Assembly (NCBI GenBank): GCA_947623455.1
Contig: OX392529.1
Span: 51,107,186-51,171,185 of the forward strand
Direction: 5' to 3'
DNA length: 64,000 bases
Origin: Mimachlamys varia
Lineage: Eukaryota; Mollusca; Bivalvia; Pectinida; Pectinidae
Shown: positions 68 to 57,112 of the stretch, piece by piece
Position numbering within the stretch: position 1 is the stretch's first letter
Layout of the letters: each line of letters begins with the position of its first letter
Notes under the pieces: model-generated
Seen by the model: the letters and a program-made list of their open reading frames with translations, nothing else
What the model was told of the DNA's origin: nothing
Databases searched by the model: none
Translations under genes and position numbers: made by a program

Positions 68-145
68 AGAATACAAAGCGTCAACAAAGCCATAATCTGA
101 ACTCAAAATCGAATAAAGCAGGCGCAAAATATGAACTAAATTATG
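68..145 (-). repeat. Dispersed repeat R, fragment
   Basis: Carries the family's end block: AAAGCGTCAACAAAGCCATA, then CAAAATCGAATAAAGCAG and GCAAAATATGAAC. Confidence 0.6.
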
Positions 146-146
146 G

Positions 147-235
147 ACAATTTGATTCAGTTTAATTCATTTTTTTCGGCATACTGTATCTATTACTAAA
201 TTGGTGTGGGATATGTATGTGTTACGTCATCCTTT
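147..235 (+). repeat. Hammerhead-bearing repeat family (H), 3' fragment
   Basis: Carries the family's downstream part (cagtttaattcattttttt, cggcatactgtatctatta, ending in a GTTACGTCATC-like end). The ribozyme core is missing from this copy. Confidence 0.55.
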
Positions 236-4099: not shown

Positions 4100-7000
4100 C
4101 TGTAAGAAAATAAAACAGTTTTTTTTAAATTGTATAAAACGGATATATTATTTAAAGGGAAATATGAATACTCCACGAAGAAATCCATAAAATCTATACA
4201 TAATAAATGTTTTATTTAACCACTGCATTAATGTCGTAGATTTTGTTACATTTTGGAAATATATTTCTCCAAAACATAATGTATACATATTCTAAGTTCT
4301 TACTTGATTTATGAGTATATATTTTGTATCTTTAAGTGATATGAAAATGAACATTTTTGAGTATCTTCATTAGTGTGTTTACTTGTTGTGATTGACAATG
4401 ATACTCGGTTCTCATTTTGAGAATTTGATGTTTACTTGGATGTGACAAAGATTTACATGACGGGTATCGTCGATGAAGCAGAAGACGCTTACTCTTCCGG
4501 AACACCTGGTCTTATTCTCTTGTACTTTAACAAGGGTCTCCATGTAAATCTTTCCTTTGTTCATATTTTTCCCCTGGTTTAATCGATTTTGAGTTTGGAT
4601 TATGATTTTGTTAACTCTTCCAACTTATAAAGCAGAATAACATCTATAAAATGTTATAATTATCAGAGAACATCAACGGGTCAACAAAACCATCAATCGA
4701 TTAAGCAAGAGGCAAATATACAAAAAAAAAGGGTAAAGGTTACATAAAAACCATCGTACAAGAACAAAAGAATCAGACCTGGTTTTCATGAAGATTACGC
4801 ATATTCTGCTTCATCGACGACACCCATCATGTAAACATCACGTTCTCAAAATGAGAACCGAGTCAGCATTGTCAATCACAACAAGGGATATGTGTATATA
4901 TAATGACTACGTCCTACCTGTGGAGGATTGGGCGAGGAATGCATCATTTCTGAGGGTAATTCCAGTGAACCTTGAACGACCTAATAAAGCAGAATAACAA
5001 AAATGTTTTTCAAAGTACTTAAGCATAGCACAGTAAAACTGATTTCAATCCATATTTTAAACCCTATTAAAAATATCTAGTCTATCTGGTGAGAAATTGG
5101 TAACACGCTGATATAAAATCGCTTTAAACATTGCTTTTGACTAAAATAAAATCTTCATCTTACCAAAGATGCTGATTATGAATAAAGCGGTCTTAACGCT
5201 CATACATTAAATCAAACAATGCATGCGATTTGAACAAAACATCTGTTGTGATCTCATAACCTTAAATTCAAATGCAATTAAAAGGATGGAACAGAAAAGG
5301 CACCAAACACATTAAAAAACACAGCAAAAACGTCACAAGACAAATGTCGCAATGTCCTTCTGTTTTCACAATCCATACTGATATTTCATTATCGACAGGC
5401 TAATACATTACAAAAAAAATCCATGTATGCTTAATATTTAATCTCTTAAGAGTTTAAATAAGATAAAAACATTTTCATACGAAAATAAATTCCATGGTTG
5501 TACTTTTTGTTAAGGCATTTTACTGGGATATTATTAAAATCACTTTAAACATATTTAATTATCTTGAACATTGTAATTATTTTATTACAGATTATAAAAC
5601 ATTTTACCATGGCCGGTGCCTTGCAACTTTCTTTTCCATTATTTTCCTTTGTGTGGCGCTTTATCGTTTATCAATGGAAAGTATTGTTTGATCACCATAA
5701 TAAATTTCTGTTGCCTATTGTTCTTTTCACTTACCTGTTGGGTAGCGCCATATTTACTTATGTATTCTGATTCACAGTCTACGTCTCGTGTGTTCTTAGT
5801 TTCTAATTTCCTCAGGCTAACGACGGTCTCCATTGAATTGCCACCGTCATAGGTCAACTTTACAAACACCACCCTGAATCAAACGTATACATAATGATTA
5901 AACTCTATACAACTTGCTATAATCCTAACTGTTAATTGACCAAAAAAAATATTTAAAGGAGCACTTGGTTGATGACGTAACAAATGCTGCATTAAAGTTA
6001 GTAATAGACACAGGTTGCCGAAAAAAATAATTAAACTGCATCATACAGCTGTTTCGTCCTCTTAGGATTCTTCAGTGATGTTAGGTGCAAAAAGAAGGAT
6101 TCAAAAATTTCTAAGCTAATATAGAAGCAAAAGGGTCAGGTGCGTAAAACCCCTTTAATTTATGAATTCAGAAGTAAAATTAAACTAGTTCTGTTTAATT
6201 TCAAATCGTGTACTACGAAAATGTGTACATTATGTACCATGCCGCTACTCAAAAAAGATACCTGTGGTTACGAAGGCTCTTTATTACTTTTTTGCTAGTG
6301 AATTATCGTAAATTATGTATTCTATAACAATGATCATTTTCACTAGTGGAAAAAATGGTTCAACCAAAGACAATGGGAACAATTCAAAGCTGCCCGGTAG
6401 ACTTGCTATAAAAATGCAATACACATAATATCTAATAGTGTCTTTAGTAATACCAAACATATTTAATTCAAGAGACATTTTTTTTTATATTTCATTCATT
6501 CGTACTTCGCACTTGGGAAAAGTATCAAAATATTAGCCCCACACGCGGAATGTAGAAATTGTAGCCTTTGTTATTTCTATCATATTGAAATCTGCATTTG
6601 CTGTTTACCTTTTAAATGAAAATGTTTCAAAAAGATGGTCAAATGAATGTACAAGCCACATTATCGTAAACAGGAAGCAGATGACTCAGACAAAGGATAT
6701 GGTTTTGTCATTTATATAATATAGTAACACCTCGTTATCTCGAAGTCGACGGGACTGTAGTAAAGCTTCGAGTTAACCGAGTATTTGAGTAACACGAGTT
6801 TAAATGCTATTGTAAAATTTGGCACAAGTTTAAATGCTATTGTAAAATTTGGCACAAGTTCAAATGCTATTGTAAAGTTTGGCACAAGTTCAAATGCTAT
6901 TGTAAAGTTTGGCACAAGTTCAAATGCTATTGTAAAGTTTGGCACAAGTTCAAATGCTATTGTAAAGTTTGGCACAAGTTCAAATGCTATTGTAAAGTTT

Positions 7001-10000
7001 GGCACAAGTTTAAATGCTATTGTAAAGTTTGGCACAAGTTTAAATGCTATTGTAAAGTTTGGCACAAGTTTAAATGCTATTGTAAAGTTTGGCACAAGTT
7101 TAAATGCTATTGTAAAGTTTGGCACAAGTTCAAATGCTATTGTAAAATTTGGCACAAGTTTAAATGCTATTGTAAAGTTTGGCATAGACCGACAAAATAC
7201 TTAGAATTAAACAGGGTATTCGAGTTTGAGATAACGAAGTTGGACTGTATGTCCTTATTGAACATTCCACATACCCGACTTCCCTGTCGAAGTAATATTT
7301 AGCCCCGTCACCAGACTGGACAAGGCTGACGCTGTCTACTCCTGTCATCCTGGCACTTGCAGGCTTCCTCACCATGGCTCTAAACACCAGATCCTTAGGG
7401 ACACACACACCAATAATGACATCTTGATTTCTAAAATAAAACAACCCACGATATGTAAAAATAATCTTTCAAAACATAATATATACTGCTTTTAAAAAAA
7501 TGATCTATCGGAATACATAAACTATCCATAAAAACTGCTAAATAGACCAGATTTGGTTTCCTATTTTTTTTTTTTTTTTTTGTGTGTGCATTTGCTACTT
7601 TTTTCAGTATGCATCAATGCCACAAAACACAAGTATCAACTGTTGTTTTTCCTAGTGTTTCTATTTTCGGTGTCTGTATTATTATTTATTCTTTTCAGTG
7701 TGTATAAAAGCCACTAAAACACACATACCTACCGGTTTTGATTCCTGGTATCTCAATTTTCCACGTCAAATTTGTAACTTAAAGAAAAGAAATGTTCTTA
7801 ACCAAATTACATTTTATTCTACGAATGTTACGTGAGATAAAAAATAATTTGGTAGTAAAAAAAAATACTCACACAGCCATTCCCATACTGCGAAGCACTA
7901 TAGCACTGTCTGGCAGACTCGTTCCAAACTTGAGAAGGTATGAATAAGTTCCACCCGTCACAACATTAAACACTGCCTGTCCCATGTTATCCGATGTCAG
8001 TCTGTTTGTCGTGATGTCGTCCGACCTCATCATTGTTCCAGTGTCACTTCTGGCTAATTTAACTAATACCTATGGACGATATGCATGTAAACGTAACACA
8101 TCTTGAACCAAAGTCAAATTTGTCTTAAAAATGACAGCTATTTCATCTCATTTACACCTAAAAACACATTTGAATCCTTCCAAATCAAAGGTTGGAATAG
8201 TGCATAATGACATTTTAGATAAGAATGAGTTAAAAGTGTAGGCAAATAACATACCGGTATTCGATATGTTTTGGATAATGCTAATTATCAACCAGACTTT
8301 CTACGATTGAAAATAACCTAAAAGGGGGTATTTATTGACAATAAACTACAAATATGATAAAAATGTCAAAATAAAGATCATCTTATTCTTTTTCTTAATA
8401 AAATGACGACATTTATGATTAAATTTTAGTCCTAAATGATTTGTGAACGGTTAACTGAATAGGGAGAGAGACATTAAACAAGATCTCGTAAATAATAGTT
8501 CGAACGAGATAAAAAGTGCAAGCCAGCAGCCAAATGGTTTATGGAATAAAAATTCCTTTTTTTCACATAGCATCTAGACTATTGAATATATTAAAGCAAA
8601 ACTAGAGCTACACAATATAAGTCTAAAGAATATCTGTAAATAATACCGCTAAAAAATGTCAATATTATTAGAAACATAAATAAACATACATATTTCATTG
8701 TTTGACAGCTTTTATCACCGCTAAATTACCTGTGCAAAGTGTTCCTTACAAACAGCCATTCCCCAATTCGTTCTTTTCGCACAATTTGATGTCATTTGGA
8801 ACGGATTTGCTCTAACAATGGAGGCACCAGGAATAGAGGTGACAGAACCAGAAGCATCAAACAATCTATCGCTTTTACTTCCATCACGGTAATCTTCGGG
8901 GTTTTCAATTTGATGAACTCGGTTTCCTTCTGATGACTAAAAATAATAAAAAAAATAAATAAATAAAAAAAAGGATTTATTTTTTTAAGTTTTAAGGTAA
9001 TATTTAATGAAATCTTATGAGTAGGATGTTCCGGGAAATAATAACAATAGATATAAACTTTATTGAGAAACATTAACTGTAAAACAAAGCTAATATTTCA
9101 ATGTTTTTGTTTACAATGGTGTATTTTTTTCTGGTATATTTTTTTTCAACTTATAAACTTATAACTTATAAAATAAATCTTACGTCATCGAAGCCAAAAC
9201 CAATGTTATCCAACGTATTTCCTGCGGAACTGAGAAACCCGTTGATTTCCTGAAATGAAATGGCTCCTGCCTCCATATCAGTTGTATTTGCGAATCCGTC
9301 AAACCATACGTTCCTTGCTGTCATTGGTCCTATGTTAAAGACAAGCCCCTTTCTTGGTCTTGGCCTACAATTACATAGTTTTATAGAGTGAAAAATTAGA
9401 GAATAACGAAGCGTAAAAAAACCATGATACGAACTCAAATTCGATTAAACAAGGAGCAAAATATGAAAAAAAGAAAAGATTTACATGGAGACCATTGTAA
9501 CGGTACAAGAGAATAAGACCAGGATAAGCGTCTCGACGACACCCGCCATGTAATGAGATAAAAATGTCGACGATAAAACTTGCTCATAGATATGATCAAC
9601 TTGCGTTTCTCGAATCCCTGTGTGATAAGTTTGTTTGTCAGCAGTCGACATCGATCACGACAATCTCGATATTTAGAGCAAGCTCTAGAATAACAAATCA
9701 ACTGCGACATGTAAACACCATGGTTGGAGACGCGTAGATGTTACTATCAAGAAATGGAAAGTTCAAGATCTGAAAATTTAAATCGTTTCCTTTATCGAAT
9801 AGCTCAGTGGTAAGCAGTCCATGTTGATCATAGCTGATCATAGAGACTTCATCAATAAAGAAATATTGCGATATATACATTGTATAACTCGATATGCAAA
9901 GTCCTTTATATGAATTAGAAAATTTATAATTTCTCACAGGCCCTGTATAAATGCCAGTCCTTTCTAGTGAGTGTTATACTTCATCAAATATAGGAAGTTT

Positions 10001-13000
10001 TTTTAACAAAGTCGTACAAATGTAATCATTTGATATGTAGAAAATAGTGGTCAATATTTGAAAAATTGCAAATACAAATAAAAAAATGTGTGTTATTAAA
10101 AAAAAAAAGTATAAAAGGATCATAACATATTCCTGCTAAAAATATTATCACAAACCTTATATTGTTCCCTAAAGGTTCACTAAAGTCTTTTATAATGCAT
10201 AGAATAGAGCTTAAACATTTCTTTCAACATAGTACATCAAAAATAAATTCGTGAGTATGTGTAAGTGTAGAAAAGCTAATAAACAACGTGATCTTGTTAT
10301 GAAATCTTTATATGTGTCATTTCGTGATCGATGTCGACTGCTGACAAACAAACAAACAAACAAACAACACAAGGATTCGAAAGATGCAGGTTGATCAGAA
10401 CTATGTGCAAGTTTTATGGTCGCCATCTTTTTCTCACTGAGAAATATTCTGTACATTTAAGTGATATGAAGATGGACGTTTTTGAGTATGCTCATTAGCG
10501 TGTTTACTTGTTGTGATTGACAAAGATACTCAGTTCTCGTTTTGAGAACTTGATGTTTACTTGGATGTGACAGAGATTTACATGGCGGGTGTCGTCGATG
10601 AAGTAGAAGACGTTTACTCTTCCGGGACACCTGGTCTTTTTCTTTTGTGTTTTACTCTAGAGTTTTCATGTAAATCTTTCTTTTGTTCCTATTTTGCCTC
10701 TAGTTTAATCGATTTTGAGTTCGGATTATGGTTTTGTTGACGCTTTGGTACTCTCTGAAATTTTTACCACATACATGTATTTCGCCTTTCTACCCTGACT
10801 CCGACCACAAACTTGCCAATATTGCAATATATGGATCACTAGGCTTAAACATTATTCAGTAATAGATGAGTTGAAAATAGAATCAATACCTTTTAATAAG
10901 CACACAATAACTCTTCGGGGACTACTTACCCGCCGACCAGCATAGGCAAAGATCGAACTGCCCCTGCTTCTTCTGGATTTCCTACATTATCCGAATCACC
11001 TATGATAACTGAGTTGGTGATCAGCTGTCCTCCAGTAAACCATCTGTAGGCATGCAAAATAAATAACATATAATTACTCATATCTACATCATAGAAAAAT
11101 AATAACTGAATTTTAGAACTAAAAGAAAGTTAACTTGAACATGAAAAAGTTGAAATATTCACATTTATGTCCAATGAGTGCCATTTCTGTAATAGAAATA
11201 TCTTCCATTTCTGTCAATGCATGATATACTATTTCTGTTTAAACGTTACACATTTTTCACTGTCAAATATTATATTTTATTAAAATATGATATATAACAT
11301 ACTTAGACGCATGGTCTTGTAATATCTCTAATGCTGTCAAACCTATATATATAAATCTCCATTGATCTGTATTGAGCTTGACATAAATAGCAATATGTAT
11401 TATAGGACCATATTTACATTTGTATAACATTCATTGCAAAATGGTATTTAAGGAATACATGTTTTTTTATTCTTGCAGTATCGGACAGTGGATATTTTGA
11501 TTAGGTGTTTATGCAATCTGATTAAAATCACATCTTGATCTCCGCGCCGTTCCGTAAATTTCTCTCTCCTGTGATAATCCCATAGGGGTCATGTCCCGAT
11601 GACCTTTTGCATTAGCCAATCAAATCACTACTGTCAGAATCTTGACAGTGAAATTTTGAGGCGACAAAGCTGGTATAATCGCATTTGTCTGTTTAGCCTT
11701 TTCGTCACCAAAAATACCATGTAAAATAATGTGCCGAAATGGCTTGCTGCAAGATGACCGGTCATTTGAAAATTATTGAAAATTAATTTAGTGTTAAGTA
11801 AAGAGGCGACAAAGGTCATCTGAATATGACCTCTTATGGGATGTTGTCAGATCCTTGTAAAACGGAGTGAGAACAAGGATCTGTATTTTGATCAGATTGG
11901 TGTGTATTTGTTACAAACCTAAGTAACTGTACTCCGTTTACAGCATCAGCCATCCTGAAACATTTAAAAAAAATGTTATTTTTTCTATATGATTGCTATA
12001 CACACATAAAACTAATATAACAATTCTTCGGGGTCAAGGTCAAACTGACTACCTAATATGTGCATTACACAAACGGTTTCATCAATATATTTTAACGGTT
12101 GGAAAAGTAATTGCCCGGACAAGATAATATTAGAAAACTAGAAATGTCTGTGAGATATAAATGCCCCCGCCCCAGTTGGTTACATTACCATGGGACGGGA
12201 CGAAATCTTTGTAAAAGTACAAAAGAGTAAGACCAAATTTTCTGGAAAAGTAAGTGTCTTCTTAAAACTTAAAAACTAAAATTACTAAACATTCAGTAAT
12301 TACTTACGAAGATTGGGTGAGTTCGATGAACCCTCTCGTTATTACGTTGAAATATCTATTCTTGTATGCTGTAAAACAAGCAAAGGCGTACATTTATTTA
12401 TAGGTATACTCAATGCAATTAAATCCCAAATATGACAGGAAATAACATAACTAAATAAAGTATCCATGGCTTACAAAGCAAACGGGTGAATGGCAATCTA
12501 ACCCATTGATAATCAGTGTTATATAAAATACCATATGTTTTACTTATATGATTTGATAACCCTTTTTCAGTATCATAAATTATAATACAATGACATGAAA
12601 ATGTATCATAGTATGCTAATGGATATAATACAGTATGATATAGTTATAACTTTCATTATTATGTTGAAGAAATGATTTATTTCAATATAACAAACTCATA
12701 CATATAATCAAATTATATTGCTACATTTCGTTGCATTTTAATGTTAGTCAGATGATATACCGTGATATCTTGCGTATTGCCCGCTCTTTTGTATAGACCG
12801 CATACCCCAAAATATTGTTTTTTATGATATGAAATCTTCATATTGCCCGCTCCGGCATATTGCCCGCGGATTATCTGCTATATAATGACTGATAATAAAT
12901 TAAAACTGTATAGGTTGACTATATGTATTATCACAGGACTCTTCACGCGAGGAATTTTCATGAGTGTCACTAAGTCGATGCTCCTTACCATGAACGAATA

Positions 13001-16000
13001 CATTTGGAATTTAGACGTTCATTTTAAATTTGATTTTCTGGAAAATGTGTATTATTATTATTACTTAAGATGCATACGTGCTAAGATTTGACAGACATCA
13101 AATAACCCGCACATTGTTAAGATTAAGGAAATTATTTTCCCAGATATATCGCTTCATAAGATTGCACACAAGAGGCATTTTGATATCTTTTAATCCGTAG
13201 AGCCCGCGATCAATACACAAGTTCTTACGGTAATTTACAACAGTTTGCTATTAATTAAGTTCCGCAATTAAGCGTTTTTGTTTAAAAAAAAAAAACAATG
13301 TATGGACCATGTGGTATATTTGACAGCAATACATTACTGTTAGTACGGTGAATAACCATAAACAAACACGCCTTACCTGTCAGTTTGACGATGTCGACCT
13401 TCTTATTTCCAGATGTTCCGTCTAGAGGGTCGTTCCATGGTTCGTATTTATTGTTATTTACCCTTGTCCCGTTCTCATCCATGGTGTCTTCTATCTTGAG
13501 TCCAACCTGAAGAATATCAAAGTTCAAAAACATTACCTAAAGGTAGTTTTGTAGAACAATGTAATATATGTCTCTCGCTCACGTTTGTTCGGAAATGATG
13601 GAATTGTGTTTGCTATCTTTTATCTCAATACAAGTTTGTTTTTAGATTAAAATAGTTGAAATCCTTAAAAACTAAGCGTAAAACCTTCAAATAAATATGT
13701 TGAGAAACATTTTCGTTAAAACCCGTGAAAACAGAAATCGTTAAATATGAAATGCTTGTTTAGAATAACGTAATATTTGAACCATGCGTAAGTAAACGAG
13801 AATTTAGTGCTAATTGATAAAGATCTTTTAATTTTGGCTATTGAAATTTTCTACCTGCAAATGTTTCGACAATATATTGCCGATTTTGAAGACAAAGCAC
13901 TATATGTTAAAAACATGATAACATCATATCTTTCAAATTCCGTCAACAGTGCTAGCTACATATTATTAATAAGATACATTAAACGTAATTTAGTTCATTC
14001 ATCAACGTTGATAATAAGATAATGTTTTACAAATTGCTTCACAAATACTAGTTAGCTTCATCGTATAAATAAAATAATACTATACATTTTTTTAAATGTA
14101 GCTACAAATGATTAACCACATGCCTTCTTAAATATATTTTCTACGGCAATGTTAGCTAAGACGTTTACAATAAAATGACTTCTGAAGAAAATCTTTCAAC
14201 TTACTACGAGTGAATAATTGAAATCTTATTTAGAACTTTTTAAGCAATGCTAGATTTGTGTAAATGATTAAATAATTTCTTACAAATTTGTTCGAGTGTG
14301 CTACGTTGTTGTAGAACTTGGTGATAGGTGTGTGGCTGGCCTCTCCTGGTTCCATGTAGCCCTTTCCCTTAGAGGATCCGATCGGCTCAAATGGAAAGAT
14401 GTACCACATTCCGAAACCCTGCAAGTCCAAGAAATGCTCATGTCATTCGTCTCACAGGCGTACACATATATCAAAGTTTGGAAATACTAATTTTACTTGG
14501 TCTTTTTATCTTGTGCATTTACGAGAGTCTCCATGTAAATCTTCCCTTTGATCCTAGTTTGCCCCTAGTTTAATCGATTTTGAGTTCGGATTATGGTTTT
14601 GTTGACGCTTTGGTATTCTCTGATTATTTTTTTTTAAGTGTATGCCAATCTTCTTAACAAACTGCACCTACATGTTCAAGCAAACATAAACGACAAATCC
14701 AAAAGATGTTAGCGTGATACATTTTGTTTGTCACCTCATAATGTTTACCTTATGTATAGTTTCTTATTTTCGTTTAGAAAAATTTCAAAGATAAAAAAAA
14801 ATGGTCCTAAGGGAACAATTTAAGTTAATGAACACAAACTGCAACAGTTTGTCAACCATAAAGTGGGGGTTATGAAAATTAATGAGCATTATTTATAAAG
14901 TCCGATCCTTTTTTGATCAGTGACAGTTTAAACACGAGTGTATGGCAGCTTAATAATCTTACCCCGAGGGTTGAGATCCCTCTGTGTCACTCTCAAGGGG
15001 GTGCATGATTATTATTTTTCTTTTACCCGGTTTGACCTTGTATATTTCTAATATTGACGATACATCAATGAAAAACAATGTTGATGTGATATGATTGCGT
15101 TGTCGACGTGACGTTATTGTAGTGTTGTCGTGACTTCATTGTATGGTTTCTATGATGTCAACCAATTGTTGAGAACGTGCATAAAGGCACAAGTCGCATG
15201 TATCAACCCTAAGGTAAGATAAGAAAATATCACACCGGTAAAAGTGCGGATATCCCTGTCAAGGGTAATAGAAAGCAATGTCAAACACTTTTTTCGTAAT
15301 AAGATTTGATTAAGTGTATTACTTACATCACTGCCACCTGCTACATTGTTTTCCATCGTGGTGAGTGGGTTGCTGATCCAGAAAGTGCTCGGTAGACTGT
15401 AACATAACACAACCGTTCTTATAAAACAGCACAATAGGCTTTTATGTTTTACATAATGCAAAAGTAAAAAATAATGTACTGAAATACTTTTTATCATACT
15501 GAAAAAAATATATATTTTAAAATCTTTGTCCAAATGTAGTCAAAACACCTAAGGAAGACTTACTAAGTATTAGTAAAATAGCATCCCCTTCAAAGAGTAA
15601 ATTTCCCTTAAATCATAATTTGATATAAAATTGGTGCGACTGCTGGTTTAATAGAGTAACCTCCCTTTAATTATAGTTTGAAACAATTGTAGTTCATTAG
15701 TTGATTTTATACAGTTACCTCCCTTTAATCATAGTTTGATACAACTGTAGTGTATCAGTTGATTTTATAGAGTATCTTCCCGGCAATCTTATTTTGATAT
15801 TTAACTGCTGCGCACCTGTTAAACCGAACCGATTCTGTTAACCAGCCTGGTCAGTTAGTTAGGGCGGTTACATAAAGAATATATGGTTAGTAATTAACAA
15901 TACAAAGTTTACTTTTGGTGTGGGCCATGAAAAACGAGATGGTGAGCCTCTAGTGAACCATCTTTATTTTCCGTCCCAAGCCAAATATAAACGTTGTATT

Positions 16001-19000
16001 GTAAGATACTTACCATTATTTTGTGTATCCTGCAACTATTTAACACAAATATTCACATAAAACAAACAAAACCGATATGTGCTCATCTTTAATTGCACTG
16101 AGGCATGCTATGTTGCCTAGTAAAAATATCCATTTATGAAACTACAGACCTCTTCACTTCTCTCAGAAAGGTGATGCTCAAAACATAATAGTTCTACTAA
16201 TTTTAAACCCAAATGGTGTAAATTCAATGTATTTCCGATAATCAACCGTTTAATACCATACTAAATTCATAAGTCAATCAAGATGGATACAGCGCCTTGT
16301 ATTAACGAGTAGTAATCGACCGCTATTTGTGGTTGTTGCAAAATTTAAACTCAGGTTTTCCCCCAAATGTTTTAAGAATCTTATACCCTTGCCCAAAATA
16401 ATCCAATACATGGTTACAATTTTTGAGAGTGGCATAGAGCCGATAGAACAAAATCTTACTCGTCAGTGGGAACGAGTTCTCCCTGCTCTTGTCCAACACC
16501 GAGATTGCCCCTAAATATGGTTCCCTTTTCGCCTCCATCTTCAAGAAAATATCCATGTCCAATGCTTTTGTAGCAGACGTTATCAGCAACCTAAAAATTC
16601 ACGAAGTGAACAATCAACATATTTCAGTTCTCTTACAGACATTGCAATTATGAATTCCAATATATTCATTTGGTTTGGTTTATTTTGTTTTACGTCCTTT
16701 GAACACCCAGGGTCATGTAAGGACGTGCCAGGTTTTTGAGTTGAAAGAAAACCGAAGTACCCAGGAAAAAAAACACCGACCTACGGTAAGTACCTGGCAA
16801 CTGCCCCACGTGAGTTTCGAACTCACAACCCAGAGGTGGAGGACTAGTGATAGAATGTCGAGACACTTTATCCACTCGACCATTGTGGCCCCTTAATAAT
16901 TATATTCATACAATGCATTGATGACATAACAAAATCACATGTGCTACTACGACATTAAATGGGATATACGAATGTTTATTTACATATATTTACAATGAAA
17001 TGTACATGTGATATATCCAGAATTAAGAGCAATCGCCAAAACGCACAGCTTCCATACCATAATCAATTTACATCCACACGTCAAAAAAATCAATTCTACA
17101 GTAGTATTATTTGCAACATTTTCCTGCTTCAAGTATAAGTTTTGGCATTTGTTATATTTCAATTTCCCTAAATAGGAAACTTTGAGAGTTAGGAGAAGAA
17201 AACTTGTATATTACCATTGCTCCATGCGTAGCGTGGACGGTGACACATCTGGCATAAGAGTCATGTATGGAGTTTTCACGTGCATACGTAGGATCAGGGT
17301 ATGTGGCTTGGTCGTCTACATCTTCACACATGTGCCAGTGAATCGGATAACTACCTATAAAGAGACAGGGTTGTTATTATTATTTTTTTTTTAACTAACG
17401 TTAAAATGTTTTAATTCCCCAGCTTTTTTTTTGGGAAGGATGCCAGGGTTGGGGTGCCCTATTTATTTCCATACAACAAATAAAAATGCCAGAATAAGCT
17501 CAAATATCTACATAAAACATATTTAATGTATACAAATTAATAAGCTTAAGATTTCAGTAAGAGAATCGGCTCACTCCATACTTGAAAGAAAAACTCACGC
17601 GATATTTGACTTGCCCTATAGCGAAATATGACGTAACACACATGCTGCACCGTTTAAATATAGAAACATATACAGTATGCCGATTTTTTTTATTAAACTG
17701 CCTTATATATCTGTTTCGTCCTTTTAGGACTCGTCAATGATGCTAGGGGCCAGAAGGTGGGAATCGAAATTTTCTAAACTAATGTACTGTAGAAGTAGAA
17801 AATAATCAATAACAGATGCGTAGAAATTTTCCAAGATTGTGACGTAACGGATGACTATAGATATATGTCGGTTTATATAATTTACCACTGGTCAAGAATT
17901 TCTGAAACCTATTATTGTATGTGTTCTAACACTTGTATATCTTGTCTGGTTTTAGCTATCAACTGACGGAAGCCATTATCTGCTGTCTGCTATGAATAAA
18001 TGATCAAATACATACCTAGTGTGTTGGACTGACCCATATGGCGAATTTCTGCTCCTTCGATATGGAAGTTTTTAAAACCTTTCCTGACCTGCAAATATAC
18101 AAATATTATTCCAAAAGTAAATGTTTGTTATCTCTTCATGAAATACATATTATTTATTGGCTGGATTGGTGTACTACGATATTGCCATTTATTATATCAC
18201 CTTTTTTAATGTCATTTTACCTATGAAGAACAAATGACATTTAAATGAAGTTAATTATGCATTTTTCCCAAACAGAAGACTGCATTCACATTATATATGT
18301 TCATAGACAGTGACATTACATTTTAAAGTGTGCGAATACATTTGTCGATTTGATATTCATTTCGGACAAGCTTAGCCGGGGAGACGGGAATTTGATTGCA
18401 AACGGAATACTCCAGTGCAAAACGTTGCTCCTATCATTTCTCTGATAAAGTAGTAGACTACTCATTGTAGGAGACATAAACATTCTCTGTTAACGTTATA
18501 TTAATATATTTACATTTGCGCTACAACCCTCTATATGAACATTACCAGCAAAAGTGCCTTCCATAAAAGTATGAAAGCAATGGTTCCCGAGACGTAGCAC
18601 GTGGTTTCATTAAGACGTCATAGATCAAGCTTGTTCAATAAGAGTCTTGTCGCGGCGCTTCGTATAACATGGATAAATATGGATGTAACGGCTGACCTTT
18701 CTTAGCACTATGAAAGTTTAAAAAATGACTTTCAATCCTTATATAAATACAACCTTTTCATCTTAACCCAGAGATGTTTTTAGACAAAGAAGGCTCAGCT
18801 AACCTTGATGTGACCTCCAAACTCGTCGTCTGCGTTCTCCATATCGCCTTCTATGACGATGTTTCTACTGAGCAAGCCTACTTCTGCACGCATGTCCACA
18901 TTTTTCGTGATTGCACCGTAATGGTTGAATCGAGGGGACACTGTCGGAATCAAAGCGAGCAAATATATCCAATAGCTTTATGTCACAAAAGCAGAGTTCT

Positions 19001-22000
19001 ACCTTTATTTACAGATGCACATCTAAATAGCAATATGATTATTTCGATCCAGATTCATTTTCTCAAAATGTCCATACATTCAAAAACATATTGAAGAACA
19101 TAAAATATAAATTTCATTTACTTTACAACAATTATGAAACAAGTTATCCAACTTATATAAATCACTCTTGTTGGCGCAGATGTTAGCGCGCGAGGTGTCT
19201 TATTCAAGTTATTGTGGGAGAAAACCGGAATACCCGGAGAAAACCCATGTTGTCCGGCAGGTTGACCCTCATACCTTTTCATGTCTGGTCGGGGAATCGA
19301 ACCCCGGCCGCCTTGGTGAAAGGCAAGTGCGCTATCGACTGCACCACCCGAGCACCATAAGACGATTAAAATTAAATACTTTCGTGTTCTATGATGATTT
19401 TTGTTATTGAAGATTATAGTTTTACAATTGTGTTATCGTACAATGAACTTACAGTCGAGTCTGACTTCGTTGGGGGCACATTCCTCACACTTAAAAACGG
19501 TGCCGACTTCGACCTGTCGCCAATCGTAATCGGTCGACGTGATGATCACTTTGTCACCTGAAAACAAATCACTTCATTAGATTCAAGTCATTTACCGGGA
19601 AAGAAAGCCTCAAAACTCTTTTACATGAGGTAAGAGGTTGTTTTAGAATTCACGTTATTGTCGATGCAACACTTCATCATTGGATGCTTGTTATTCTGAT
19701 ACAAGAAGCAGGAAAACTTTACGGAAGGAATTTAAAACATAAATCTTGCATCTTTTGTTTCGCCGCTATATTACCTTGTAACATTTCTACTGGACAGGTA
19801 TAGTGTTCCTGTAAGCATTTAGTGAACAAGCAGTACTTTCTACATCTAAAATTGTATAACGTTTATCATTGGTCATTTAAATCTATGACGACCTCTTTGT
19901 CAACAGCTGAAAATGAACGGTGCACGGTCCTTAAGCAACCTCTGAACTGTTAAGGAATACTTCACAGAATCTTCATAATGAAGTGCACAGAGAAGTACTT
20001 TAATTTAAATATTTTGAATAACATATATTATTGAACGACCTATCTAAGAATTAAACAGCATTCTGTTCCATCTTACGGTCCTATAACACGAAACAGGGTT
20101 GAAAACAAAATGAGTAATGCGCGTTAGCAGATTCGTGGTCTCATAACACAGAAATGGCCTTAGTAGTGGTTTGTAGTTGCAATGTACAGCAAATGTAAAT
20201 ATGTTACATTAAATGCAGATATAACATTTAATTCAAATATCATGAATTGTACATGTATGTATATAATGATTAAAAACTTATGTAATATCTTATAACATAT
20301 GGTTATATATAGTATGCTTATAGAGATTCACGTTAAATACATTTGCATATAAACTTAAAGACAGCATTATACATTACATACTCAACTAGCAAAACTCATA
20401 AATCAATTATTTGTAAAAATATCTGTAACAACAAACATTTGATTTGATGGAAGTTCAACTTTGAAAGTCGCTTACAGCAATATACAAAAAATGTGTGTTC
20501 AATACCTTCATTCCAGGAAGTGACGTCATCAGAGACGGTGATTTTCGGGATCGATTTGGCTGTATAAGTCACTTCAAATGTCGCTGTTGATCTTCCAAAC
20601 CCGATGGATCTGGTGTAACTCTCGACGAAGAACTTAATTGTCTTGTCCTGCGACATCATTGAGGCTGATGAGGTTTGGTGAATACCACCGATTTTGTAAG
20701 GTTCGAAATTTTCGATGGTCTTGGAGTAATCACCTAAAATCGATGAATTAAACAACTTTAAAAAAAACAGGAATATAGTATTTTGCTATTTTTCATAAAT
20801 CTTAATTATAAATCTAAATAATATATTTCGGGTTATAAAAAGGATGTGTTATTTTATTATTGGACCAATCAAGAAATGATGTTTTAAGACAAATGTTTTC
20901 ATGTAAATACAATAATGTATATATGGAATGTCATCTGTGTCATATAATCAGTAAAATGATATCAAATGCTTTTGATTCATTACTATTTGGTTAACTCATT
21001 CATCCCTTGAACACTTATGGACTCTTTCCAAACAAAGATAAAACAACGAATTTATATCGTACTATCTTACATGTTCGTTTTTCTGCTGCTGCATACATAA
21101 TACATATTTTAAATCTTGATTGAATTAAGGTGCACAAATGAAAATGTAATAATGATTCAAAACTTTTACTATGTAATATGGCTAAATTTTTTTGCAACTA
21201 GTTTGTTTGAAGAGAAACTTGTTATTTGTTGTTTACTGCCCGAGCTATTGACACGTGGACTTGAATTTAGTTTAATTTACATGCAGAAAAACATCTGGTA
21301 TTTTTAATCTTGCATTTGTTTTCAAGAATTTGCCTGCAAATCCTTCTTTTATTAATGTCTAAGATTTTTAAAAATCCCCAATATATTATATATGTGTTGG
21401 TTCAATGAAAGAAATTCGTAAAAATGCAAGTGTAAATTGCATGTATTTATATAAATACTTGTGGACATAGAGAAGGTAAGTACAGCTTCATACCTTTTAC
21501 CACGATCATGGCGAAACTGTCGTAGAAGACGAGATCTCGGATTTTGCTCGAATTTGTGACTTTTCCATATCCCAACATCTCGACAGCATCATAAAACAGA
21601 CTTCTATCAAACGCATTTTCTCTGTCAACGATGAATTTCCGTACCGCAAGCATCACTACGTTTCCGTTTGGTATTTCTGAAAGAAATAGCTGGGTGATTA
21701 AAACAAGAATTAGATCTTCGCCGACAAAATCAAAATAACGTCAGATAAATTAATTATGCAACGTCAAAGGTTACATAATGTTCTTAGATTAACAATGATG
21801 ATGTAACACACACATACAATGTATGCTGCACCTTTTAAAATTTAGTAATAGATTTAGTATGCCGAAAAATGTAATTAAACTTCATCATAGAGCTGTTTCG
21901 TCCTCATAGGACTCTTCGTTGATGCCAGGGACCAAAAGAGCCAAAAAATGAGCTAAAAAGTGTTCTCTAAGAAAAACCGCTTTGCTAAGTTTCGTTTCAA

Positions 22001-25000
22001 TTAACATTAAAGTCTTAGCTGCATGCCTTTTATATAATGTTGGTACTTTAAATGTATAACTTATACATGTATTTACAGATATTAATACACATTTTTTACA
22101 TGTACCGATACGTGCAATATTGCCATATCAATATGCCTGTAGGGTACATTGTATTCACTTTCAGTGTATTGCCGCTGGATACTTTGTACATTTTTAATGC
22201 ATTATCGGCATATGCCTTGTGGATCTTCAGTGTATTTCCGGCACATACATTGTATAAACTTTCAGTGTATGTTATGCCTGCAATCCTTGTTAGTTATAAA
22301 CCGGAAGGTACAGTGTACACATTTAGTGTATTACATTTATTAAATGTATTACAATGTACCAGTACATAAATTGTACACTTTCATTGTATTACATTTATTA
22401 TATGTATTACAATGTACCAAAATAATACATAATGTACATTTTCATTGTATTACATTTATTAAGTGTTTTACAATATGCCAGTACCTACACTGCACACTTC
22501 CGGTGTATTAACAATTTTTGCATTATGACCTCATCATTATACATAGTATTCTTTCTTTTACCATCAATATAGGTGGCAAATCTTCCGCTTTCCCTTTCAA
22601 TTCCTTTTTGATGTTGCATGCCGACATTAAACGATCCTCGCGGTCGATCACATTTCCCAGTAACAGGATTGTAGGAATTTACCATGAAACCTCTGACGTC
22701 ATCCTCTTTCGTTACCTTGAATGATGACGTAACACACACATATCAAATTAAATTTGATTTTTTATTTACGTTTACATAATACAACATCAATCAATTTTAT
22801 TTGTTGGAATAATGTAATGTATGATATAATGATCTAATGCTAATAACATAACTATAATTCACATATTATCATAATTCAATGTAACATATATATTACAATG
22901 TGTTACAATAAAATTTCATTTTTACTGTATGTGTGATATTCTTATTGTAATACCGGGTCAAGAAATCAGCAAAATCATAAATTTATAAAAAGAATTAAAA
23001 AAAAAACCACGCACCCACACATGAAAAAGGTTTATGTACACAGGTATAAAGCACAAGTTTTGGTAATCGATGTAATAGTTTAAAATGAAAATAATTTCAA
23101 AATCCAACGAATTATTGTAAGCGAATTTTATCAAAAGTGCGCTAAGAAAAGTTTTAGATATATCACTAACTTACCGCATCGTAAGAGGCAAACGCATCAC
23201 TTGTCATTTTCTGGACAGGACTTGCGAGCTTCGTCCATGGGAGCTTTCTTTGTCCATGAATCTCAAGAGTACCGTCCTCGTTAACGCCGAGGAACTTCTG
23301 TCCAAATCCTGGCACAGAGTAGGTGTCGTTGATGGTCCCTAGGCAAAACAAAATCAAGGAACGGTCAGCAGAATGGACACATACATCGGCAACTGACAAA
23401 CAAACTTTAGGGAAAGGGATTCGAGAGATGCAGATTTATCAAGATAGTGACAGTTTTAATGGTCGTCATCTTGGTCTTAATGAGACATATCTTTGTGTGA
23501 TATGAAGGTTGACGTTTTTGAATATTTTCATAGGTATGTCATTTTATTATGTGTGAAATTACTCCAGTTCTAACTTTAAGGATATGACGTTTATTTGGAT
23601 GTACCATAGATTTGTATGGTGAGTGTTGTCGATGTTAAAGAAGACGCTTATCCTTGCGGAACATCTAGTCTTATTATCTTGTATTTCTAAAGGGTCTCCG
23701 TGTACATATTTATGAGTTTGAATTATATTTCTTGTTGACATACATGTTCTAGTATTCGCTGATTGTTTTTTGTTGTTTTATTTTTAAGACATGTTTTTCT
23801 ATGTAAATATTTTAAAATGTTACATTTTAGTAAAAGTTCTAAATTGAAACAATTGAAATAAGCTACCACACCGCGTAATTGATGCGCCAAATGTAATTGA
23901 AATTTATAGTCATTGTTATTTTTATTATCCCCAATAAACACCTAAATTGTTATACACAGAACATTGCATTATCTGAAGTAGGATATGAGTTAGTATTGTG
24001 TCATCACATATCTATGAGATGTATACTTGGTTAAAATCACAACGACATAAAGAGATGTTCGCTTAAATATGTAATATTTTGCTTTTGTTAATAAACGTAT
24101 TAATTATTCTTCAACAACTATGTTGTATTGAAGAAAAGTACGAAAACAAATCTTGTGCCAGATCCAAACAATCAAACTAAACAATTTTAATCAGTGAATG
24201 GTAGCTCATCTACTTTCTTGGGCTTCTCTATGGGAGACTATTTAAACCATATAATCTTCAACCCTTGCATCATCTACATGTACTTCTTCAAATATCTCGT
24301 CGGTAAAAGTACGCATCAGGTATTACCATGTAAACAAAGGACTAATTACACACAACCCTCTCTTTTGATAAACATTCTTCATTAAAATTACCTAATAGTT
24401 GAATCGTAGCTTCTCCCTCGTAAAGACAATCAGCAGACCCAATGTCCATCCGTCCTCCCTTTATCTCGATGTATTTCGTCCTCAGCGTTAGGTCACTGTT
24501 TGGCAGAAATACCAGTCGACCTCCGGTTACTATAGTAATGCTACCGAGATCCACACCTGGACTTGCATCTAAGGCTATCATGGAATTGATGATGACGTCA
24601 TCACCTTCTACGGGTACCTAGTTTTTTTATGAAATTAAATTGAACAGATTTAGATCACCAAATATCTATTTGCCTTTGTCCAGTTGGAATTCATTTTGCT
24701 TATGAATGCCAACCGAAAGCATTCCAATGCTTAAATGTGAAGTGTTTGAAGTCTATATATAATTTCATATGTTTGTCATATTTTCAATAACTTTAAACAC
24801 TAACGTCATTTTCAAAACGTTTTCCTATCATGTGATTTTCACCAATCATCAAGAATAGACAAAATTACCACTAAAATAGACTAATACTGTGGAGCAAGAA
24901 TTGCCAATTCTCTCTGCTATCATTCTATCTTTATTTGCTAGCTATAGGTATTTTAACTCTATCAATATTGCTGAATGAATTCAAATAATTATTTCCCATA

Positions 25001-25860: not shown

Positions 25861-25975
25861 TCTCTGTGACGTCGTACAGTGGACACTTTTTCTCTGTACG
25901 ATAGTGGACAGTGGTCAGTCACGAGCTCACAACGAGATCGAGTCGAAAGTGGTCAGTTCTATATGGTCGTAGGGA

Positions 25976-28300: not shown

Positions 28301-28449
28301 ATTGAACGGCGTTGTTTTAATTTTCATGCCGGTACGAATGCAAATCGGTTACATCCATATTGACCATGAAGCCCTAACGGGCTTCATGCAATATGGATGT
28401 AACCGCTTTGCATTCATACCGGCATGAAAATTAAAAAACGCCGTTCAAT
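28301..28449. repeat. 149-bp near-perfect palindrome
   Basis: Arms of about 72 bp beginning ATTGAACGGCGTT, containing TTTTCATGCCGGTACGAATG, and closing on GAAGCCC-taac-GGGCTTC. Only a few mismatches between arms. Confidence 0.9.
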
Positions 28450-32780: not shown

Positions 32781-35700
32781 CTGTAAAAGGAATATGTGTT
32801 ACCGTTAATTCTGTCTTAACAAATGAATGTTACCAAACGTTAATAGAAATAGGAGTTATCGAAAAACAGGTTCCCCACACTCCTTCGCTTGATTAGGAAT
32901 CCCTACAAAAACAGGGGAATGGGGTACGTAAAAGCTGACAAACTAAGCTACCAAACACGTGGCTCTTTTAAAGTAACTATTATTATTGTTATCTATGGTC
33001 ATTTTGTTACAATTTGTCTTTGATTGTTATTAAAATCACGGCTCTTATCGCTTCTAATGTTATTACAGTGGATTCCACTTGAATCACCCCTGTTAATATC
33101 ACATTTCTCTTTATATCATGTTTTTCCAAATCACCAATTTTTCCTGTTTTTTTTTTTTTAATATGATGGATTATGAGGTGAATTCCTCTTAGTATCATGT
33201 TTTTAACCAATCACAAAAAATATCCAGAAAACGAAGGCATTTCTATTGACTTCAGATAAACTTTGCATAAAATACATCGACGTATTGTATAAAAATAAGA
33301 AAAAAACAAACAGAATTTTTTTTAATGAAATAATGTTATCTATAGAGTGAAACGTCTTCATAATTATGTACATTAAACAGCTTACTTTTAGTTATGGAGA
33401 TTGGAAATGCACTAGATTTAGTTTTGAAACATGTTTCTTTTAATGTCACATTCCTGTTAATATCATTTTTGTCTGACAAATGCAACATGATATAAAGAGG
33501 AATGCACTATATCATTAATTTTGTAAATGTCATTACTATTTTCAAAAAAATAAATTATACATTATACTGTAAATGTCACGTATTGTGCTATTTTCATTAC
33601 AATAGTTAATGTCATATTATGTTTTTGTCATTTTGTTGTTAATTTATTTAAAATTCCGTCAAAGACTTTAATACTGCTAATTTCATAAACGTCTCTCAAT
33701 GTCTTTTGTTCTTTTATTGTCATTACTAATCTTGATGTCATTGAATTATGTAATCATCTTTATTTCGGTTAATGTCATTGATTCTGCTATTATCTTGTGT
33801 ATTTCGGTTAATGTCATTGATTCTGCTATTATCTTGTGTATTTCGGTTAATGTCATTGATTCTGCTATCATCATCTTTATTTCGGTTAATGTCATTGATT
33901 CTGCTATCATCATCTTTATTTCGGTTAATGTCATTGATTCTGCTATCATCATCTTTATTTCGGTTAATGTCATTGATTCTGCTATTATCTTGTGTATTTC
34001 GGTTAATGTCATTGATTCTGCTATCATCATCTTTATTTCGGTTAATGTCATTGATTCTGCTATCATCATCTTTATTTCGGTTAATGTCATTGATTCTGCT
34101 ATCATCATCTTTATTTCGGTTAATGTCATTGATTCTGCTATTATCTTGTGTATTTCGGTTAATGTCATTGATTCTGCTATTATCTTGTGTTATTTGTTCA
34201 GTTAATGTTATTAATTCTGTAATTATCACCTTATGCTTGTTAATGTCATTCATTTTGTTGTCTTCTTTATTACAATAAACGTCATTAATTTTGTTTTTAA
34301 CTTTATTTATGTTTATGTCATTAGTTATTTTATTGTTAAAAATTCTGTTATCATCTTTATTACTGTTTTTGTCATTAACATTACCGCTTTTCCTATATTG
34401 GTGTATAGCTTATACTTCGTTGCTGTATAATCTTATAATTGTTAATCATTAATAAACACTCTGTTTATTATTCTTACCGCAGGTGGGTCAGACGATGATT
34501 TTGACAGAGTCGATGGTAAACTTAGTGAACGCCTCATCTTCAAAAGTTGACGAACAGTGACCTGTAATTAAAAAAAACATTTAATTGAAAATATCGAATA
34601 AGTACATTATCTTCTCAATAGTTGTAATTTTTGCAATGATTCAGAACCGAATACAGTAAACACTTTTTAACAACTCTCCGGAGACCAAAGAAATTAAGTT
34701 TGTTAAAGGCATCGTTCTTAATACGTGTATAACCTACAAATGATAGAGCGCTGGGTGGGGAATGAAAACAACACTACATTAAACCTCACCTGTGGTTGGT
34801 ATTTGGCTTTAAAAGCCGCCTCGCAGTCCGTGTCCGACTTGTCTTTGGTGGAAATCATCATCACATCCACTCTAGCACAGGCACCTTCAGGACAGTTCCT
34901 CAGCCATAATGAATCGGGTGAGAATGAACTGGTGGTCATCAGTTTCACAAACAGGACGCTGATTGTGATAAAAGGGGGCAAAAGTAAAAACAAAAACAAA
35001 AAACAAAAAACAAAAACAGAGATTATCAAAGCGTCAACAAAACCATGATCCGAACTCAAAAACGATTAAACTAGGGGCAAAATATGAACAAAGGAAATAT
35101 TTACATGGAGACCTTCGTAAAATTACAAGATATTAAGGCCAGGTGTCCCGGAAGAATTAGCGTTTTCTGCTTTATCGTCGACACCAGTCATGTAAAATAT
35201 ATAAATGTATACTTAGGGAAATTGGTGCAAGGAGGTATAATTGTATTTGGCTCTAAAACAGCATTAACGTGAGGGGAATCGATTTAAACGTATTGGTGAA
35301 AACCGACATTTATTTGTCGTATAAACAGCATAAAAGTATATTGTGGAAAACAGTATAAATTGTGCTGTAGTTACAATTATCAATGTGTGGTATGGTAAAA
35401 ACTATAAAGGTACATTGTGGTAAACAGTATAAATATGTGTCGTTGTATAAAGAAGATACTGTATATCGCTATAAACAGTATAAATATATGTCATAATGAA
35501 CAGTACCAATATACAAATATGTCGTGTTTAAAAGTATGAATATATGGTCTTGGAAGCAGTATATATGTGTATTGTGGTAAATGATATAAATAGGTGTTGT
35601 GATAAACAGTACAAATGTGCGTTGGGTAAACAGTATAAATGTATGTCGTGTAAAACACTATAAATGTACGGTGTGGTAAACACTATAATTGTACGGTGTG

Positions 35701-38700
35701 GTAAACAGTATAAATGTACGGTGTGGTAAACAGTATAAATGTACGGTGTGGTAAACAGTACAAATGTATGTCGTGGTAAACACTATAAATGTATGTCGTG
35801 GTAAACAGTATAAATGTACGGTGTGGTAAACAGTACAAATGTATGTCGTGGTAAACACTATAAATGTATGTCGTGGTAAACAGTATAAATGTACGGTGTG
35901 GTAAACAGTATAAATGTATGTCGTGGTAAACACTATAAATGTACGGTGTGGTAAACAGTATAAATATACGGTGTGGTAAACAGTATAAATGTATGTTGTG
36001 GTAAACACTATAAATGTACGGTGTGGTAAACAGTATAAATGTATGTCGTGTAAAACACTATAAATGTACGGTGTGGTAAACACTATAATTGTACGGTGTG
36101 GTAAACAGTATAAATGTACGGTGTGGTAAACAGTATAAATGTACGGTGTGGTAAACACTTTAAATGTATGTCGTGGTAAACACTATAAATGTATGTCGTG
36201 GTAAACACTATAAATGTACGGTGTGGTAAACAGTATAAATGTACGGTGTGGTAAACAGTATAAATGTATGTCGTGGTAAACACTATAAATGTACGGTGTG
36301 GTAAACAGTATAAATATACGGTGTGGTAAACAGTATAAATGTATGTTGTGGTAAACACTATAAATGTACGGTGTGGTAAACACTATAAATGTATGTCGTG
36401 GTAAACACTATAAATGTACGGTGTGGTAAACAGTATAAATGTATGTTGTGGTAAACACTATAAATGTACGGTGTGGTAAACACTATAAATGTATGTCGTG
36501 GTAAACACTATAAATGTATGTCGTGGTAAACACTTTAAATGTACGGTGTGGTAAACTGTATAAATGTATGTCGTGGTAAACAGTATAAATGTATGTCGTG
36601 GTAAACACTATAAATGTATTTCGTGGTAAACACTTTGAATGTACGGTGTGGTAAACTGTATAAATTTATGTCGTGGTAAACAGTATAAATGTATGTCGTG
36701 GTAAACAGTATAAATGTACGGTGTGGTAAACAGTATAAATGTACGGTGTGGTAAACAGTATAAATGTACGGTGTGGTAAACACTATAAATGTATGTCGTG
36801 GTAAACACTATAAATGTATGTCGTGGTAAACACTTTAAATGTACGGTGTGGTAAACTGTATAAATGTATGTCGTGGTAAACACTATAAATGTACGGTGTG
36901 GTAAACAGTATAAATATATGCCGTGGTAAACACTTTAAATGTACGGTGTGGTAAACAGTATAAATGCATGTTGTGGTAAACAGCATAAACGTATGTTGCG
37001 GTAAGTAATATAAGTATATACAAACCCTGAGTCACCATCGAGGAAATATTTGGTTCCTGAAGTATCCGACTTGAGCGCATCCAGGCTTGCTACAGAAGAT
37101 GCCGTCTTCCGGTTTGGGGTATTCGTTTTAAGCTTGAATGACACGTCCTTTGGAACACATACACCGATAATAACGTTTTCCCCACTGTAAATTACAAAAA
37201 TAGAAAAAAAAACATTTTGTGAATGTCATATTAAAACATGGAAACAACACGTAACGTTATTATCATCATTATAATTTGGTGTTGATAAACATGCACACCG
37301 CATTACAAATTAATTAGCGAACAACAGGCAACTTTTTTACAACAAATGTAAACAAGTTTCATTTGCTTTTTTAAACGGAAAACAAAAGATAATGCTCGTG
37401 ATTTTTTAATAAAATAATTCACAAAAGTGAAAACCTTTGACATAGTGGTACATTGTATGTGTCGTTTCTTTGACTTGTATACGTACCTCTGCATTCCCAA
37501 TCCTGTCAATGAAAAGCCTGGTGGGATTTTGGAATTGAATTTGACTAAGTACATGTAGGAATCACCTAGGATCACATTGAATGCACTTGTCGCTCCAAAC
37601 ATGTCTGACGTCATTCTGTTGTTTGTGACGTCATCAGATCTCATCATTGTCACAGACTTTTCTTTTATTCCTCTTATAACGACCTGATAACAAGGGAAAA
37701 AATAAGCTGTATTTTTCGCAGGCAAGTGTTTCTAATTTCATTCTGCTAACTGCAATATTTATCTACATTTTAATAAATAGCACTTTGTCGCAGGTACGGT
37801 TTAAAACAAGCGAATACAAAAAATAAAGTGTACCCTCGTAATATCGCCACCTATAGTCTTGGGATATTGTGGCAGTATAACGAGGGTGACAATAAGAAAT
37901 TTGTTTCGTGAAATTGTATTACACATTATATTACCGACGTTTAATTAAATACAAGTTGAGCAATAGACATATTTCATAATCTACATTTTTCATAAATCCG
38001 ATTTCTCATTGATATCCATTTGCTGTATTCCACCTGTTATTATCTGTCAAACTTTATGCGAAAATATTCGGCCCATGATCTAATAGTACATGCTTTCGTC
38101 TTGGAATGTAGTGACTTCCTAGTTTGACCTTGGCAATATTTAATGAAACTAAATCCGACTGAAGGACAAAAACATACTCAACAACATTCTACTGTAAACC
38201 AATTTTCTTCCGCGTGTGATTTACTATCGCGAATCTCGCGATCAGAAAAAATTCACGAAAGTTAATCGTCGCGAATTATGATATGAAAGACTTGCTTGAT
38301 AATATTTTTGGGTCTCGTAAATGCCCTGCGGCAAGCTGACCTGTCGTAGCTGAATTTGCAATCGGGAATGGGGCTCCTTACAGGGTTTTCAATAAGTGAA
38401 ATATTGTAAATGATCGAATTCGCGAAAGTAAATCGCCGCAAAATTGTTGTGTTACCAAAATCGCGAAAGTTAGAAGCCGCGACAAAAAGTTGGTTTACAG
38501 TATCATATACCTTTTTTAAGTTAAAACCATCAGTCAATTTGGTTTACTTAGCTCTCACCTGGCCAAAAGATTCATCGCAAACCGCCATTTTCCAAGAATC
38601 TACCAATGCACAGTTAGGGGACATGTGAAATTTCAGCGGCCGCACAACACTTGCGCCTGGTATGGACGTGACATCGCCGTTTTCGTCGTAAAATATGTCC

Positions 38701-55822: not shown

Positions 55823-55876
55823 CTCTAGCGATGGACAGAAACCGACCAAATGCGGGTCAGTACCAAATAAAAGCTT

Positions 55877-56696: not shown

Positions 56697-57112
56697 GCTT
56701 GCTCTAAATATCGATATTTTCGTTATAGAATATGTCGGCTCTTGACGAACAATGCAGATTGAGGAAGACTATGGGCGAGTTTTATGGTCGCCATGTTGGT
56801 CTCATTGAGAAATATTCTGTATCCATGTATGATATGACGGTAGGCGTTTTCTTGTTTTGTTTTGTTTTAATATGCTAATGAGTGTGCATAGTTGTTGTGA
56901 TTGAGATTGTCTCATTTCTCACTTTGAGAACGTAACATTTACTTGGATGTGGCCTAGAATTACATGGTAGATGTCGTCAATGAAGGAGAAAACTTACCTT
57001 TCCGGTTTAATTCTCTGTATGAAGAGAATGTTCGTGTAATCTTTCTTTTGTACATATGTTGTCCATTGTTTAATCGATTTTGAATTCGGATTAGAGAATG
57101 TTGACGCTTCGA
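56697..57112 (+). repeat. Dispersed repeat R, near-full-length copy
   Basis: Starts GGCTTGCTCTAAATATCGAT, passes TTTTATGGTCGCCATGTTGG, and ends at TTGACGCTTCG, so it extends further 5' than the 10320 copy. Confidence 0.6.

Follow-up and report, generated by a model that had tools for sequence, protein, structure and literature searches.

Metazoan non-long terminal repeat (non-LTR) retrozymes are non-coding tandem repeats of ~150-450 bp with a GC content below 50% and a type I hammerhead ribozyme; they lack LTRs, a primer binding site (PBS) and a polypurine tract (PPT), are found as linear and circular RNA, and their target-site duplication, when present, exceeds 4 bp (PMC7229834). Retrozymes of this kind are known from mussels and corals. 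Penelope-like elements (PLEs) were named as a strong candidate for their mobiliser in PMC7229834, and PMC8969392 mentions them as possible mobilisers. We analysed a stretch of 64,000 nt from Mimachlamys varia (GCA_947623455.1, contig OX392529.1, positions 51,107,186 to 51,171,185; "the window" below), in which a first-pass annotation had noticed a dispersed repeat with a hammerhead-like core and a palindromic stem III of minimal length, as found in PLEs and metazoan retrozymes. Copies from the host genome supported this assignment, carrying the full motif with a unit length and tandem order that fit a retrozyme. The repeat is a new family of metazoan non-LTR retrozyme of an ordinary type. Our preferred reading, which we consider moderately probable, is that this element of ~379 nt with one type I hammerhead is cut to circles and copied by a PLE reverse transcriptase.

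The mussel non-LTR retrozymes resemble the repeat in their hammerhead, as the two-pair stem III capped by a tetraloop that is described for invertebrates is also present here (PMC7229834). Sequence and host differ, and the retrozyme studied here is known from DNA alone and has no clear target-site duplication; its fixed 3′ end, measured here at 83 to 88 nt after the cleavage site (+83..88), is not described in the parts of PMC7229834 drawn on. Plant LTR retrozymes, as told in the same paper, are likewise non-autonomous, with hammerheads flanking a non-coding unit, whereas theirs are of type III and are accompanied by LTRs, a PBS, a PPT and a 4-bp target duplication. Amphibian satellite and axolotl retrozymes share the short stem III and a palindromic loop favouring dimers, but have units of 330-350 bp, another sequence and reported loop-loop contacts (PMC7229834). 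PLEs also carry a small hammerhead with a self-complementary stem III (families A, B and C of the host genome) and form tandem and 5′-truncated copies; in families A and B and in PAc, a PLE of Anolis, 3′ ends lie ~70-89 nt past the hammerhead site. PLEs differ in that they encode a reverse transcriptase (RT) and a GIY-YIG endonuclease while the repeat codes for nothing, in that their tail sequence is not shared, and in that A and B have a longer class of ends.

The repeat in the window

Five copies of one dispersed repeat were found in the window, c1 to c4 on the minus strand and c5 on the plus strand:

5971..6279, minus strand, retrozyme copy c1; 3′ end at TTACGTCATC, judged by eye (the alignment reaches 5980 only)
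6038..6081, minus strand, hammerhead of c1; intact core, predicted cleavage between 6044 and 6043, RF00163 24.1 bits
17624..17786, minus strand, retrozyme copy c2; 3′ end at unit position 86
17700..17743, minus strand, hammerhead of c2; damaged core (TTGACGA)
21794..21939, minus strand, retrozyme copy c3; 3′ end at unit position 86
21882..21925, minus strand, hammerhead of c3; damaged core (ACGAAGA)
43485..43797 (about), minus strand, retrozyme copy c4, the longest in the window; its hammerhead stops after CTGACGAG (43517-43529)
153..234, plus strand, retrozyme copy c5; begins where the cleavage site lies, 3′ end at unit position 86

The three minus-strand motifs reported earlier lay at their places and showed 41/44, 38/44 and 38/44 identity to a consensus written from them, against 24/44 at the next-best ungapped place among those listed on either strand. 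Compared element by element, c1 indeed has every core base (CUGANGA, GAAA, U16.1, H17) and a single stem II mismatch, with 5/6 pairs in stem I and 3/4 in stem II, whose closing pair is A against C. The core is not intact in c2, c3 or c4. The core changes claimed for c2 and c3 were recovered, namely TTGACGA, with 4/6 pairs in stem I, in c2 and ACGAAGA in c3, and the stem III palindrome is broken in both. As also noted before, c4 keeps CTGACGA while the remainder of the motif, its 3′ half, is gone. This copy further contains downstream and middle parts of the unit, arranged head to tail. The earlier count of four copies had overlooked c5. The stem II letter of c1 also occurs in five sampled motifs (L014, L025, L028, L031, L048) and thus looks like a subfamily variant rather than private decay. 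The covariance search proposed by the first-pass annotation found c1, the sole match to the Rfam type I hammerhead model RF00163 (E-value 0.21 in the whole window and 0.00083 in a 251-base stretch), below the gathering score of 34, and left the other copies unmatched; no match in the Rfam scan of the window reached gathering. Identity to the query unit ranges from 66-88% among the five copies, which are therefore old.

A tandem unit of ~379 nt in the host genome

The host genome (975.3 Mb, 71 contigs) was searched for similarity to c1, and 40 of 4188 first-look candidates were scored, giving 42 rows. Eighteen large contigs total ~931 Mb and, taken together with C17, point to 19 chromosomes, a number shared by many bivalves. 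Every row except the window's own was taken, for 39 loci, together with L050, a 10-kb stretch chosen without a match. When L011-L050 and the window were mapped to tandem units, 56 stretches were obtained, of which 39 had been selected through the query and 17 were unselected; the latter are not all separate insertions, some being fragments of broken copies (L014, L038). The sampled motifs were mostly chosen by similarity to c1, and the sample favours good copies. L050, the one random 10-kb stretch, held no retrozyme copy.

The genome copies consist of a non-coding unit of ~379 nt and are 5′-truncated and often in tandem. Cleavage sites are spaced by 379 bp in L013 and by 378 bp in L020, and 19 of the 39 selected stretches exceed one unit. 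The unit has a GC content of 0.388, and its longest frame is 72 codons, so that an open reading frame (ORF) for RT and GIY-YIG is absent. No separate LTR was apparent, LTR, PBS and PPT not having been searched by program. The pattern of stem II and GAAAC (TCCT, 1-4 letters, AGGACGAAAC) was found in 18 of the first 20 loci.

Quality and folding of the hammerhead

Hammerheads were counted where a motif spanned at least 38 of 44 columns (n = 56). The core was intact in 45 of these, and in 36 it came with at least 5 pairs in stem I and all 4 in stem II. The consensus motif has 6/6 pairs in stem I, 4/4 in stem II and a self-complementary stem III. RF00163 and not RF00008 was matched, with stems open at stem I; the type I model fits, and a type III hammerhead was not the match. 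L020 has two hammerheads of 33.6 bits each (E 1.5e-6), 0.4 bits below gathering. The gathering score is a curator's cut-off and not a structural feature, and was not treated as deciding membership.

When two strands were folded together, stems I and II formed along with an 8-bp stem III (-36.7 kcal/mol). On paper the folds favour a hammerhead dimer, and cleavage by the single motif or by the dimer would both be possible. Invertebrate retrozyme hammerheads mostly cut well singly and amphibian ones as dimers (PMC7229834). Two further statistics were set aside. Folded as a circle, the unit gave z -2.1 relative to base shuffles. Minor letters had a frequency of 0.037 in the hammerhead, which ranked 29th lowest among 379 windows, and of 0.050 elsewhere in the unit, in a sample chosen to span the hammerhead.

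Fixed 3′ ends and scattered 5′ ends

The 3′ end lay at +83..88 in 42 of the 56 mapped stretches (31/39 selected, 11/17 unselected) and at +80..98 in 46. The 5′ ends were scattered. Judged by eye, the flanks of these 46 stretches are mutually unlike, except for the duplicated pair L020/L035. Junction repeats of at least 7 letters were seen in 4/20 loci, compared with 21/380 mismatched pairs, and those of L018, L019 and L027 include letters of the element.

The cleavage site was crossed by 39/39 selected stretches, as the query required, and by 10/17 unselected ones, indicating that such copies did not come from linear RNA cut there; uncut multimers or circles could yield them. A cut template would produce a copy that starts at the cleavage site, as c5 does, but such starts are rare. 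Only 3/46 stretches began within 3 nt of the site, one of them at an internal junction (L014), and 5′ ends at the cleavage site were rejected as a general pattern. A cluster of 5′ ends at unit positions 321-335 (8/46) had P ~0.05 under a uniform model, with two of the eight from one duplicated locus (L020, L035), and is not claimed.

Penelope-like elements and the 3′ end distance

A GIY-YIG search of the host genome, with 150 of 241 candidates scored, gave 56 matches, and RVT_1 and GIY-YIG occur together in L051, L052 and L053. The 24 PLE 3′ flanks examined represent a part of the PLEs present in the genome. A small hammerhead was found in 12 of them, in three families:

PLE family A: L054, L055, L059, L060, L073, small hammerhead in the 3′ flank
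PLE family B: L052, L056, L057, L061, L062, L063, small hammerhead in the 3′ flank
PLE family C: L068, small hammerhead in the 3′ flank

Looser matches to the hammerhead pattern, in L054 (a second one), L058, L065, L069, L071, L072 and L075, were left uncounted by eye. Two inverted pairs lie at single places, L054 with L055 and L056 with L057. The family A hammerhead, as read, has an extra C ahead of stem II. Covariation of the stems, on which the first-pass annotation had staked the ribozyme, was seen between families: the stem letters differ among A, B, C and the retrozyme, yet all pair except one end pair of stem I of A, and stem III is self-complementary in all four.

The 3′ ends of PLE-A lay at +68..72 (three copies) and +179 (two copies) after its own cleavage site, and those of PLE-B at +78..85 (three copies) and +198 (three copies). 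For PAc, reverse transcription in vitro begins at an internal position of the RNA that lies 111-118 nt from the start of the ORF; genomic copies end at this place with a longer tail optional (PMC11167929). In the RNA sequence given there, the hammerhead site follows ORF nt 29, and the start thus falls at +82..89. The retrozyme 3′ end at +83..88 agrees with the PAc start. This match of distance to the PLE ends and start supports mobilisation by a PLE reverse transcriptase. In searches of open-licence PubMed Central (PMC) papers, covering result listings and the papers cited here, we found no mention of retrozyme 3′ ends at the PLE start distance.

The short and long classes of PLE 3′ ends are ~110-115 nt apart in both A and B, like the optional tail of other PLEs, but longer.

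As a separate observation, tandem PLEs were located no more than tens of kb from the ends of contigs, with RT and GIY-YIG encoded in long open frames that reach 741-825 codons:

C16 15-21 kb, C17 24-68 kb and C4 19-26 kb: near-end PLEs
C1 65.80 of 65.82 Mb, C5 58.38 of 58.42 Mb and C12 48.91 of 48.95 Mb: near-end PLEs
L051: PLE of this kind, domains matched

Such putative subtelomeric arrays of canonical endonuclease-bearing PLEs would merit attention.

A proposed cycle and its alternatives

In the cycle that we propose, tandem copies would be transcribed, and their hammerheads, acting singly or as dimers held together by the palindromic stem III (ACAGCUGU), would cut after GUA. A host ligase would close unit circles. 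A PLE reverse transcriptase would then begin DNA synthesis inside the RNA, ~85 nt past the hammerhead site, and would continue for as many as ~2.3 units, either round the circle or on a multimer that had not been cut. The resulting copies would share a fixed 3′ end, and their 5′ ends would be ragged.

Several observations weigh against this proposal. Hammerhead mutants of PAc left insertion in vitro unchanged, and no reads ended at the hammerhead site in the experiments of PMC11167929 drawn on here, so cleavage may not be needed. The tail of the retrozyme has no sequence similarity to those of PLE-A, PLE-B and PAc (z -0.8, -1.6 and -1.3), while the PLE-A and PLE-B tails resemble each other (z 4.9). 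The longer class of 3′ ends of PLE-A and PLE-B, at +179 and +198, is not shown by the retrozyme sample, and the 24 PLE 3′ flanks held neither retrozyme-like sequence nor a partner PLE. As for the ribozyme, in the single-strand fold (-15.3 kcal/mol) the core CUG is base-paired to the stem III CAG, and the Rfam gathering score was missed by c1, by L020 and in the seven loci scanned.

It is possible, though unlikely, that the retrozyme is moved by a long interspersed nuclear element (LINE) or another reverse transcriptase, and that the end near +85 reflects the binding of that enzyme. Copies of LINEs and of short interspersed nuclear elements (SINEs) are likewise 5′-truncated with a constant 3′ end. 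An abundant RT element, which also has a fixed 3′ end, is present throughout the sampled loci, and the junction repeats described above, some of which include letters of the retrozyme, lean the same way. However, the copy lists showed no stretch common to the abundant RT element and the retrozyme, and the 3′ end distance is the one that matches PLEs.

We regard it as quite unlikely that the copies are remnants of the non-coding pseudo-LTR (pLTR) part of an autonomous PLE and not a separate non-autonomous element. Where a copy has two hammerheads at a spacing of one unit (L013, L020), the interval is free of coding sequence, and the unit was absent from the 24 PLE 3′ flanks, a part of those present, even though the hammerhead, the tandem order, the 5′ truncation and the 3′ end distance are all PLE-like.

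That the tandem copies arose in DNA by unequal exchange or replication slippage, with the hammerhead an inactive passenger, seems very improbable. The window copies would suit it in being mostly damaged and diverged from the unit, but the ends of copies from separate loci differ by no more than a few nt and their flanks are unlike, which calls for dispersal and not local expansion, and core and stems I and II are intact in 36 of the 56 motifs of a sample favouring such copies. Chance resemblance to a hammerhead, with which only the score of c1 below gathering would agree, is excluded by the genome copies, where the full motif recurs, as in the two hammerheads of L020, in tandem at unit distance.

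Host genes and other features of the window

Minus-strand frames in the window matched G8 and the CEMIP beta-helix above Pfam cut-offs. Homologous exon-like frames occur in the same order in both halves, indicating two tandem CEMIP-like genes:

5735..25914 (outermost exon-like frames found), minus strand, first CEMIP-like gene, host of c1, c2 and c3
34799..55831 (outermost exon-like frames found; last match weak, E 0.004), minus strand, second CEMIP-like gene, host of c4

The four copies noted at first had been placed sense in introns of these genes, and this held: c1 is flanked by exon-like frames at 7208 and 5872, c2 at 20504 and 14421, c3 at 24342 and 21686, and c4 at 43975 and 40507, each in sense. 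Sense orientation in 4/4 is not significant (two-sided 1/8). The suggestion that a copy could cut the intron RNA of its host appears weak, because the cores of c2 and c3 are broken, half of the c4 motif is gone and c1 has its stem II mismatch.

The abundant RT element has a frame with RYIDDV at L023 1242-1943 (minus strand), a fixed 3′ end and 5′-truncated copies. This frame gave no Pfam match, and its relatives made up 7850 of the 8000 database proteins scored. The element may be a PLE with permuted domains. Its copies in the window are as follows:

58-139, 2587-2894 and 4319-4620, copies of the abundant RT element
9392-9838, 10320-10769 and 14495-14631, copies of the abundant RT element
34993-35195, 44428-44606 and 56566-57111, copies of the abundant RT element

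The remaining features stand apart from the retrozyme. A tRNA-like match on the minus strand at 19282-19353 (26.9 bits, gathering 29) is perhaps a tRNA-derived SINE, and a minus-strand hairpin at 28318-28433 matching mir-310 (32.8 bits, gathering 48) is probably an inverted repeat. Tandem repeat arrays lie at 35500-37000 (25 bp), 6733-7274 (30 bp), 33675-34298 (39 bp), 58059-58883 (55 bp), 46395-46896 (46 bp) and 48248-49137 (~88 bp). A motif scan of viral contigs yielded a type III hammerhead above gathering in L002 and a weak type III match in L001; neither is related to the retrozyme, and both were rejected. The hammerhead of L002 (2864-3007, minus strand, 49.9 bits) lies beside a twister-P1 match of 51.9 bits (gathering 67.2).

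Implications

Metazoan retrozymes in general may be parasites of PLE reverse transcription that have kept two PLE landmarks, a dimerisable hammerhead and an internal RT start ~85 nt further on, and their copies may be the footprints of reverse transcription round ribozyme-made circles; we regard this wider idea as evenly poised. Copies that end near the PLE start distance from the hammerhead make the guess of PLE mobilisation directly testable, and the distance from hammerhead to end is a feature by which retrozymes may be matched with PLEs in other genomes.
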